64,000 nt of DNA from an uncultured Halorubrum sp. (GTDB lineage Archaea; Halobacteriota; Halobacteria; Halobacteriales; Haloferacaceae). The stretch lies in contig NZ_CAKZRO010000052.1 of assembly GCF_937146585.1 (NCBI RefSeq), forward strand, positions 1 through 64,000, in the 5' to 3' direction. The translations under genes were made by a program, and so were the position numbers. This document shows positions 29,652 through 45,869 of the stretch, piece by piece (positions within the stretch are counted from its first letter, which is position 1; the number at the start of each line of letters is the position of its first letter). A model generated the notes under the pieces. It was not told where the DNA came from, searched no databases, and worked only from the letters and a program-made list of their open reading frames with translations.

Positions 29652-29664
29652 ACAGCGACGTTTA

Positions 29665-29995
29665 TTTATAAATAGATGCGGTGGCGCGTGCCTCCGAGTG
29701 GCCGCCGAAGGCGGCCGCGAGGAGCACGCGCGAGGGAGTCGCTGGCTCCCGGAGCGAAGCGGAGGGTGCCAGCGACGAGGCTGGGGAGGCGTGAGGCGCC
29801 GTGCGGTCGCGGTCGGGCGGGACTCAAAGGGGCAGCCGGCGAGGCGGGCGCAGGCGACATAAGCACCGAACGAGGGAGCAACAGCGACAGAGTGAGGCGC
29901 GCAGCGAGCGTGCGCCCGCCTCGCCGGCTGGGGCTTTGGGAGTGTACGCCATCGATCTGCTGACAGCCGTTTATAACCGAGCGGCTGGTGATTGA
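29665..29995 (+). repeat. Copy A of a structured dispersed noncoding element
   Basis: Noncoding DNA between the transporter operon and the gene at 30093, related to copy B at 42067-42394. Stem I: GCGCGTG 29684-29690 pairs with CACGCGC 29725-29731. A bulged C and CTCC/GGAG (29692-29695/29721-29724) follow, then tandem GA/GA mismatches, a 9-bp apical stem and a GAA loop (29707-29709). Stem II: GTCGCTGGC 29738-29746 with GCCAGCGAC 29768-29776, enclosing GCGAAGC. Stem III: CAAAG 29825-29829 with CTTTG 29934-29938, an internal loop GGGC/GGGG, then a perfect 19-bp helix 29834-29852/29911-29929. A terminal hairpin CAGCCG/CGGCTG (29964-29969/29982-29987) has a loop containing TTTATAA. TTTATAA occurs near both ends. 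Bases 29725-29789 equal 42122-42186. U-G pairs fit the plus strand. RNA gene or hairpin-type mobile element is undecided. Confidence 0.8.
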
Positions 29996-30092
29996 GCGGC
30001 GTTCACCGCAGAGCAGTCAATCGCGGTTCTCCAAGCAACGACGATACATAATTATCGAGGCGACACGCCTTACCCCGCGGGCCCAGTAAGGC

Positions 30093-30356
30093 ATGTATAT
30101 GGCCTCCGAGGCGTGCGACGTCTGCGAGCGGTCCGTGCGGATCGCCGGCGGGATCGGCGACCTGTGGAACTTCGCGTTCGAGTCGACGCAGGGGCTGACG
30201 CTCGAACTCACCGACGGCTCGGAGTTCTTCCTCTGTTTCGACTGCATGGAGAAACTGCCCGACGACCACGAGCCGACCGCCGAGGACGTCGCCGCCCTCC
30301 GGGAGCGCACCGACCCGGTCGAGGACGACGGCAACCACTTCTGGCACTGGGGCTGA
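30093..30356 (+). CDS. Small zinc-ribbon-like protein
   Basis: An 87-aa protein with two cysteine pairs, CDVC near residue 8 and CFDC near residue 48, placed as in small zinc ribbons; a HFWHWG ending adds two histidines. Translation can begin at either of two ATGs, 30093 or 30099. Short conserved-looking haloarchaeal zinc-finger proteins of this size are common, but the function is not known. It is the first gene after structured element copy A, on the same strand. Confidence 0.75.
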   Translation: MYMASEACDVCERSVRIAGGIGDLWNFAFESTQGLTLELTDGSEFFLCFDCMEKLPDDHEPTAEDVAALRERTDPVEDDGNHFWHWG

Positions 30357-41952: not shown

Positions 41953-42066
41953 CCCTTCGCTCGTATCGTGCGGAACCGCAACACGGTGGGGGAGTATCGG
42001 CCGGTATGCGGTGCGTTCACACGGGTCTTTATATAGAACACCAGATCAACTGCTGGACGCGCATTG

Positions 42067-42394
42067 TTTATAAACGGACCGCGGTGGCGCGTGCCGACGA
42101 ACGCCCGGAGGGCGTGAGTCGCACGCGCGAGGGAGTCGCTGGCTCCCGGAGCGAAGCGGAGGGTGCCAGCGACGAGGCTGGGGAGGTGTGAGGCTGCGGT
42201 TGCTGTGCGGTCGGGGTGGGGCTCAAAGGGGCAGCCGCGAGGACGCCGTAGGCGACGCAAGCACCACAGCGAAGGAGCGGTAGCGACTGAGCGAGGAGCG
42301 CAGCGAGCGTACGGCGTCCTCGCGGCTGGGGCTTTGCAGGTAGTCACCGTCGATCTGTGGTCAGCTGTTTATAAGCCAGCGGCTGAGGCTTTGA
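42067..42394 (+). repeat. Copy B of a structured dispersed noncoding element
   Basis: Related to copy A at 29665-29995 and built the same way. Stem I: GCGCGTG 42087-42093 with CACGCGC 42122-42128. The bulged C follows, then CGAC/GTCG (42095-42098/42118-42121), the GA/GA mismatches, and ACGCCC/GGGCGT around a GGA loop. Stem II: 42135-42143 with 42165-42173. Stem III: CAAAG 42224-42228 with CTTTG 42332-42336, the GGGC/GGGG internal loop, and a perfect 18-bp helix 42233-42250/42310-42327. Terminal hairpin: CAGCTG/CGGCTG (42362-42367/42380-42385), with one U-G pair. TTTATAA is at 42067-42073 and 42368-42374. Relative to copy A, at least four substitutions plus one base-pair deletion in stem III, and several changes in stem I, occur on both arms together. 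The element fills the gap between the KH-protein and thermosome genes and runs opposite to both. Confidence 0.8.
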
Positions 42395-42473
42395 CAGTAC
42401 TCACGACACCGCTGGTAACAACACTTCATAAACAAACAGCGACGGCGACGCCGAAAGTGATAACGGATCCTGC

Positions 42474-45171: not shown

Positions 45172-45734
45172 CGACGGAGGCGCTCCGCGTGCTCGACGAC
45201 GACGCGGCCCAGCCGCTCGGTGCGGTCGCGGAGGTCCGCGTCGGTGATCCGCGGTCCGCCGTCCGGTCCGGTGCCGCCCGCGGTCCCGCCCGTCTCGACG
45301 ACCGACGCGGCGCCCCGGATCCCGACCTCGTGGGGGACCGTCCACGCGTGGACGTTCCGGAACGTCGAGCGGAGGTGTTCGAGCGTCCCGCCGTAGGAGC
45401 CGCCGCCGGCGGTCGCGAGCAGCCCGACGGCGGTGTCCGCGTACTCGTCGGAGCCGCAGAAGTCGTGGAAGTTCTTGAACGTCGACGAGTAGGAGCCGCG
45501 GTAGACGGGCGTGCCGGCGAGGACGCCGTCGGCCTCGCGGACGCGGCGCTTCAGCGCCTCGCTGTCGCCCTGCGCGCCCTCGTCCGGGTGGTAGAGGGGG
45601 AGGTCGACGGTGGCCAAGTCGATCAGGTCGGTCTCCGCGCCGGCGTCGGCCGCGGCGTCGAGCGCGACGCGGAGCGCGGCCCGCGTGGTGCTGTCCGCGC
45701 TCCGACTGCCGGAGACGGCGGCGATTCGGGTCAT
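45168..45734 (-). CDS. NADPH-dependent FMN reductase family protein
   Basis: A 188-aa flavodoxin-fold protein. It has the N-terminal phosphate-binding AVSGSRSADSTTRAALRVA, the LPLYHPDE loop, the GTPVYRGSYSSTFKNFHDF segment near residue 73, and a LATAGGGSYGGTLEHLRS loop near 107 that contacts the flavin ring. These are family hallmarks. Substrates in vivo may be free flavins, quinones or metals. It begins at the ATG 45734, close to the divergent phosphohexomutase gene, and overlaps the rhodanese gene. Confidence 0.88.
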   Translation of the reverse strand: MTRIAAVSGSRSADSTTRAALRVALDAAADAGAETDLIDLATVDLPLYHPDEGAQGDSEALKRRVREADGVLAGTPVYRGSYSSTFKNFHDFCGSDEYADTAVGLLATAGGGSYGGTLEHLRSTFRNVHAWTVPHEVGIRGAASVVETGGTAGGTGPDGGPRITDADLRDRTERLGRVVVEHAERLRR

Positions 45735-45869
45735 ACGTCGGGTTCGACTGCCGGCCACTAAAACGCGGGCGGTCCGCGGCGACCGCCGCCGGTCTCCCGG
45801 TCGCACGCACGCTCGCAACCGTCGCGGCCGACACGGGGCATTATTGTCCCCGCCGCCGACGTGGCTCCC

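Follow-up and report, generated by a model that had tools for sequence, protein, structure and literature searches.

Two hairpin-rich elements in the window

The window, a stretch of 64,000 nucleotides from the genome of an uncultured Halorubrum sp. (G000, 92% complete), carries two copies of a non-coding element, both in the plus orientation (Table 1). Copy 1 lies between an ABC transporter gene and a DUF7561 gene (site 1), and copy 2 between the thermosome gene and the KH-domain gene (site 2). In Halorubrum the element consists of three hairpins (stems I, II and III) linked by purine-rich, single-stranded motifs that hardly vary, and followed by tandem units of 54 or 57 bp. The 57-bp unit of copy 1 is followed by a truncated second unit; in copy 2 a second unit begins at position 42381 (GGCTGAGGCTTTG). 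Only one tRNA reached the Rfam gathering threshold in the window, and the best match within the element had an E-value of 0.86. No publication describing the repeat was found in searches for names or for sequence strings, which did not extend to most subscription journals, and the family is apparently undescribed so far.

Table 1. Features of the two copies of the element in the window
Feature	Position	Strand	Evidence or remark
Copy 1	29662..30004	+	Family profile, nhmmer 296.7 bits
Copy 1, left TTTATAA edge motif	29665..29671	+	Fixed position in 76/165 copies
Copy 1, conserved start GCGGTGGCGCG	29678-29688		Stem I starts just within
Copy 1, stem I with conserved GA/GA internal loop	29684..29731	+	Fold; RNAalifold two-sided changes; G.U vs A.C 24:2
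Copy 1, stem II (GTCGCTGGC...GCCAGCGAC)	29738..29776	+	Fold; outer-pair conservation
Copy 1, conserved unpaired motif GAGGCTGGGGAGG	29777..29789	+	Alignment; also in other haloarchaeal families
Copy 1, conserved motif GGGACTCAAAGGGGCAG, 5′ side of stem III base	29819..29835	+	Alignment
Copy 1, long stem III; AAAG...CTTT closing, GGG/GGG internal loop	29826..29937	+	Fold; basal-pair counts
Copy 1, 57-bp 3′ unit (start GGCTGGGGCTTTGG, TTTATAA 29970-29976)	29926..29982	+	Genus-wide 57/54/51-bp tandem spacing
Copy 2	42064..42401	+	Family profile, nhmmer 307.1 bits
Copy 2, left TTTATAA edge motif	42067..42073	+	
Copy 2, stem I of the GAC.ACGCCCGGAGGGCGT.GTC type	42087..42129	+	Fold; parse with GA/GA loop
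Copy 2, stem II	42135..42173	+	Fold
Copy 2, stem III	42225..42335	+	Fold
Copy 2, 57-bp 3′ unit (TTTATAA 42368-42374)	42324..42380	+	Sequence, unit family

TTTATAA motifs and the 3′ tandem unit

The first-pass annotation of this DNA had drawn attention to a TTTATAA motif occurring twice in each copy; the four positions that it gave (Table 1) are exact, as are the separations of 305 nt in copy 1 and 301 nt in copy 2. No further TTTATAA is present on either strand of the 64 kb, where dinucleotide shuffles predict a mean of 0.02, the two matches on the minus strand being the palindromic left copies themselves (TTTATAAA). The motif had been described as lying at both ends of the element, which is right for the left occurrence and wrong for the right one. 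Of 165 Halorubrum copies, 76 have a TATA-like motif within the 25 nt that precede the core, compared with 7 that have one in the adjacent 25 nt upstream, and the modal distance of the motif to GCGGTGG is 13-16 nt; the left TTTATAA is a feature of the left edge of the element. It had also been doubted that this motif is the promoter of the full structure, and with reason: transcription starting about 26 nt downstream would begin inside stem I, a spacing unsuitable for a promoter of the whole RNA.

The right TTTATAA sits in the 54/57-bp unit, which is present in tandem one to six times 3′ of the core. The unit starts with GGCTGGGGCTTTGG, i.e. the repeated 3′ arm of stem III, and often includes TTTATAA, which within units is often mutated to CGTAYNGCC forms; the small hairpin enclosing it, on the right-hand side, is poorly conserved among copies. 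Spacing of the units is 57 bp in 98 of 140 distinct cases, the others being 54, 51, 63, 69, 60, 48 or, rarely, a different number. In another Halorubrum genome, G027, the unit core occurs 144 times, in arrays of up to six, and the reversed control not once (0). Lying as it does in a tandemly repeated unit, the right TTTATAA is neither an end of the element nor a target-site duplication, an explanation that the unit rules out. TTTATAA is an internal component of the repeat and not a pair of IS200/IS605 termini. Almost all spacings of the 3′ units are divisible by three (48-69 bp; positions 42324-42400 of the window and arrays throughout the genus). One frame of the units is mostly open. They were nevertheless rejected as protein-coding, because they show no codon-position signal and because the proportion of synonymous changes is lower in this frame than in any other.

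Folding and strand polarity

Compared with shuffled sequences, the plus-strand folds of copies 1 and 2 gave z = -8.2 and -6.6, respectively. Across the family the pairing of the hairpins is preserved despite near-total sequence turnover. RNAalifold analysis of 53 diverse copies revealed two-sided changes in 10 of 25 predicted pairs, eight of them in stem I. When stem I was parsed explicitly in 126 copies, 628 of 630 inner cells were paired, and among the distinct stems G.U pairs outnumbered A.C by 24:2 (p = 1e-5), these counts being of distinct sequences, which are phylogenetically non-independent. In stem II the outer five base pairs are Watson-Crick in 718 of 735 cells (147 copies), with a G.U to A.C ratio of 7:5 that is not significant. 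At the base of stem III the pair is C-G in 89 copies, T-A in 31, T.G in 27 and C.A in two. A GA/GA internal loop is present on the plus strand of all parsed copies of stem I, as the parse itself requires, and plus-strand GA/GA purine-purine loops outnumber pyrimidine ones.

Unguided hairpin finders had given a G.U to A.C ratio of 26:18 in the first of these tests and 47:28, 19:12 and 71:131 later, an inconsistent bias. SRP RNA, taken as a control through the same aligner, gave 74:82, without a G.U bias; because the control was also flat, the first method was judged to be insensitive and explicit parsing was substituted.

The U-G pairs T29699/G29717 and T42366/G42381, from which a plus-strand RNA had been proposed, do exist, and that reading gains support from the compensatory changes in stem I, the excess of G.U there and the basal T.G pairs of stem III (27:2). 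Judged from sequence comparison, these data support a fold of the plus strand, most simply as RNA; single-stranded DNA of the plus strand would also favour G.T over A.C.

Distribution of the family

At least 40 copies of the repeat are present in each of three Halorubrum genomes (G000, G027 and G062), and all 35 Halorubrum genomes first searched contain matches. Exact matches to a core 26-mer in named genomes belong exclusively to Halorubrum. The core motif GGTGGGACTGAAAGGGGC, which is related to GGGACTCAAAGGGGCAG, was found with at most two mismatches in 106 of 155 genomes and in 41 of 57 genera of the order; it reaches up to 235 occurrences per genome in this order-wide search, against 0-1 for the reversed control, and ranges from 5 to 143 between congeneric species. 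A covariance model of the 5′ half recovered relatives in other families of the order. Those with the full architecture have, in order, GGTGGCGCG, stem I, GCGCGAGGGA, stem II, GAGGCTGGGGAGG, GGGTGGGACTGAAAGGGGC, stem III carrying GACGCAAGCACCG and GAGGAGCGCAGCGAG, and GGGGCTTTC, while the stem III part alone was detected in several other genera. Plasmid-borne matches of this kind come from named hosts of Halobaculum, Halorussus, Haloarcula, Natrinema, Haladaptatus and Halobacterium. The two elements of the window are thus members of a large family of non-coding, hairpin-rich haloarchaeal repeats, located between genes and numbering dozens per genome.

Some variant arrangements were noted. In genome G180 several occurrences of the core motif form divergent pairs separated by about 45 bp, which suggests that they are arranged as palindromes, and in some other genera (loci L271 and L277) tandem repeats of about 32 bp (GGCCGGTGACACAATCCAC...) lie upstream of the stem III element. 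A viral origin of the repeat was rejected: phage records contain no match, the Halorubrum pattern has none in viral contigs, and the 16 matches of a 15-base motif in IMG/VR are not above chance by our own estimate.

Genomic position and evolution

Of 105 copies, 102 lie between genes, and convergent intergenic regions are enriched for them (33/95 versus 26/145, p = 0.004). The right neighbour gene is oriented toward the element in a ratio of 69:29 and the left neighbour in a ratio of 51:51. These ratios and the convergent enrichment are based on simple, rough gene calls with at least one visible error. Of 25 Halorubrum species, about 20 carry all or part of the element at site 1, with its orientation unchanged, and the intergenic sequence outside the element is hard to align among them; most of the 25 species also have a whole or partial element, oriented alike, at site 2. 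Many copies are truncated, for example at site 2. The DUF7561 gene of the window (30093-30353) lies just downstream of the repeat, and the same is seen in one relative from another family (L260).

Six pairs of orthologous copies in G000 and G062 have flanks that are 83-93% identical. When the elements themselves were ranked by similarity among 42, the orthologues ranked 15, 2, 21, 24, 40 and 16: orthologous copies keep their position, yet resemble each other no more than random copies do. The type of stem I also varies between orthologues with its pairing intact. The simplest account suggested by these data is that hairpins are swapped as units between copies. No recent duplicates were seen among the copies fetched from G000, G027 and G062, the best within-genome identity being 87-90% over at least 200 bp, and in the genomes examined the repeat is probably now mostly dormant.

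Small modules of double-hairpin structure are found inside copies, namely M1 (48 bp), M2 (about 53 bp) and M3 (about 75 bp). M2 is present in locus L099, at site 2, and missing from the nearly identical L089; comparison of L317 with L318 places a related M2 within the hairpin at the left end of a TnpB element. M1 was also found outside the repeat family, and one double-hairpin module has been inserted in both orientations.

Relationship to IS200/IS605, PATE and TnpB elements

The first-pass annotation had considered whether the repeat is an IS200/IS605-type element or a derivative like the PATEs of Haloquadratum. Some PATE-like features are indeed present in the folds and alignments: near-terminal palindromes, a lack of inverted terminal repeats and a lack of a transposase gene. 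A search for the Y1 transposase (TnpA, PF01797) gave no match in G000 and 1-3 matches in each of four other Halorubrum genomes. As for a TnpA with ends matching the hairpins, eight TnpA loci had no match to the family within 1 kb; one separate copy of the repeat lies more than 1 kb away from a TnpA gene. The expectation that empty sites would break at TTTATAA was not borne out in the empty alleles compared, none of which contains the motif, although diverged intergenic parts limit the precision of the junctions. These were the empty site at about 45700-45820 of the window, compared with the filled locus L194 of G062, and the alleles L131 at site 1 and L091 and L092 at site 2.

Repeat motifs are absent from the 3′ ends of 30 TnpB loci, and the repeat was rejected as the omega-RNA of TnpB, not being located at tnpB 3′ ends in these loci. 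About nine of the 30 have a copy of the repeat within the 3.2 kb fetched, where our own density estimate predicts two or three; TnpB loci and repeat copies therefore seem to co-accumulate in the same regions. In locus L305 (reverse complement, about 410-430) a TnpB element starts exactly at the left TTTATAA of a repeat copy. The same TnpB family starts after TTATAA in L300 (about 420-440), some way past the last unit of the copy, and after TTTAT in L301; the left end of this Halorubrum family of TnpB insertion sequences is immediately preceded by TTTAT or TTAT. In view of the insertion in L305, TTTATAA is at least a target for such TnpB elements. The proposed relationship to IS200/IS605 elements or PATEs is thus mostly unsupported, no TnpA having been detected in G000 and no related ends having been found, and keeps one point in its favour, namely the targeting of the motif by TnpB elements.

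Nature of the repeat

We estimate the probability at about 60% that the repeat is an old, order-wide, mostly dormant family of structured intergenic repeats, comparable in kind to the BOX elements. The plus strand would act as a folded RNA once transcribed, as far as its sequence allows this to be judged. The family may once have dispersed as a non-autonomous element, and would now be evolving by gene conversion between copies, with whole hairpins being replaced as modules. The number of 3′ units would change through slippage, and small double-hairpin elements presumably insert into the palindromes of the repeat. The spread of counts among congeners points to more activity than the word dormant implies, or to loss. 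The structure kept at one site for the age of the genus could in turn reflect selection on a host function rather than dormancy.

Such a function is at the heart of a possible, though rather unlikely, alternative, in which the copies are multi-copy non-coding RNA genes serving the host, for instance as ligands of a protein that recognises the invariant GA/GA, GAGGCTGGGGAGG and GACTSAAAGGGGC motifs. Compensatory change and the G.U bias agree with it, as do the preservation of the single-stranded motifs in other families, the DUF7561-adjacent site common to different families and the retention of the element by about 20 species at one site amid poorly alignable intergenic sequence. However, motif counts varying from 5 to 143 within one genus, the many truncated copies (again including those at the thermosome/KH site), the overall inconsistency of the neighbours and a TTTATAA misplaced as promoter of the full structure all argue against RNA genes of this kind. 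It is about equally tentative that we are dealing with a family of hitherto undescribed structured RNA elements whose dispersed copies swap whole hairpins yet retain their position and architecture, and which either serve the host or are mobile in an RNA-dependent, SINE-like manner with an expandable 3′ end. A structure operating in the DNA, either a cruciform or a protein-binding site like REP/BIME, and involved in chromosome organisation, recombination or transcription termination, appears still less likely. The near-perfect, very GC-rich stems would suit it, and so would the enrichment between convergent genes with the right neighbour directed toward the element, the differences between orthologues by whole hairpin types and the targeting of the palindromes by small elements. 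However, plus-strand GA/GA loops predominate and G.U exceeds A.C; because of these asymmetries it appears to be one strand that folds, something for which a symmetric cruciform does not account.

The least probable of the readings considered is a PATE or another non-autonomous derivative of IS200/IS605, in which TTTATAA, preceding the left end, would be the target and the hairpins the substrates of TnpA. It would account for the absence of inverted terminal repeats, for a short AT-rich motif with a palindrome about 14 nt away and for an element too short to encode a transposase. The small repeats nested in palindromes, to be compared with SMR-A in PATEs (PMC3119063), and the Halorubrum TnpB family with TTTAT or TTAT before its left end, inserted at the motif in L305, are also in line with it. 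It is opposed by the lack of a detected Y1 transposase in a genome that is 92% complete, by the unrelated ends of the eight TnpA loci and 3′ ends of the 30 TnpB loci, by the absence of TTTATAA from the empty sites, by the location of the right TTTATAA in a tandem unit and by the lack of visible recent duplicates.

Comparison with other dispersed repeats

The BOX elements of Streptococcus pneumoniae and its relatives are likewise dispersed, intergenic and modular, with one module varying in number and a strong structure if transcribed; they are also enriched between convergent genes, show little current movement and have no known mobilising enzyme (PMC3049150). No sequence relation exists and no homology to BOX (PMC3049150) is claimed; in the haloarchaeal repeat the tandem module (54/57 bp) lies 3′ of the core, entire hairpins are apparently swapped, and the family extends across an order of archaea. 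If the present reading is confirmed, the repeat is an archaeal counterpart to bacterial modular repeats, and one carried by dozens in many haloarchaeal genomes had stayed nameless. With more than 180 natural variants, a clear strand polarity and both filled and empty sites at hand, the persistence and the RNA nature of such repeats would then be directly testable in culturable organisms.

PATEs of Haloquadratum walsbyi share with the repeat their non-coding nature, a near-terminal palindrome after a short AT-rich motif, the lack of inverted terminal repeats and the attack of small mobile repeats on palindromes (PMC3119063). In contrast to PATEs, the present repeat matches no IS200/IS605 ends, TTTATAA is missing from its empty sites and no recent insertions were seen; it is also order-wide and built of three hairpins with tandem 3′ units.

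REPINs are much shorter than the repeat studied here and are moved by a single-copy RAYT. Both form long-persisting populations of intergenic hairpin sequences (PMC8049555), whereas no Y1 transposase was detected in G000.

The nested modules resemble SMR-A, small repeats lacking a transposase that likewise insert into the palindromes of other repeats and apparently do so without duplicating the target (PMC3119063). The modules are double hairpins of about 48-75 bp, whereas SMR-A is about 110 bp long and has inverted terminal repeats (PMC3119063). Small double-hairpin inserts without obvious target duplication were observed in loci L058, L066 and L136 and in loci L048, L069 and L153.
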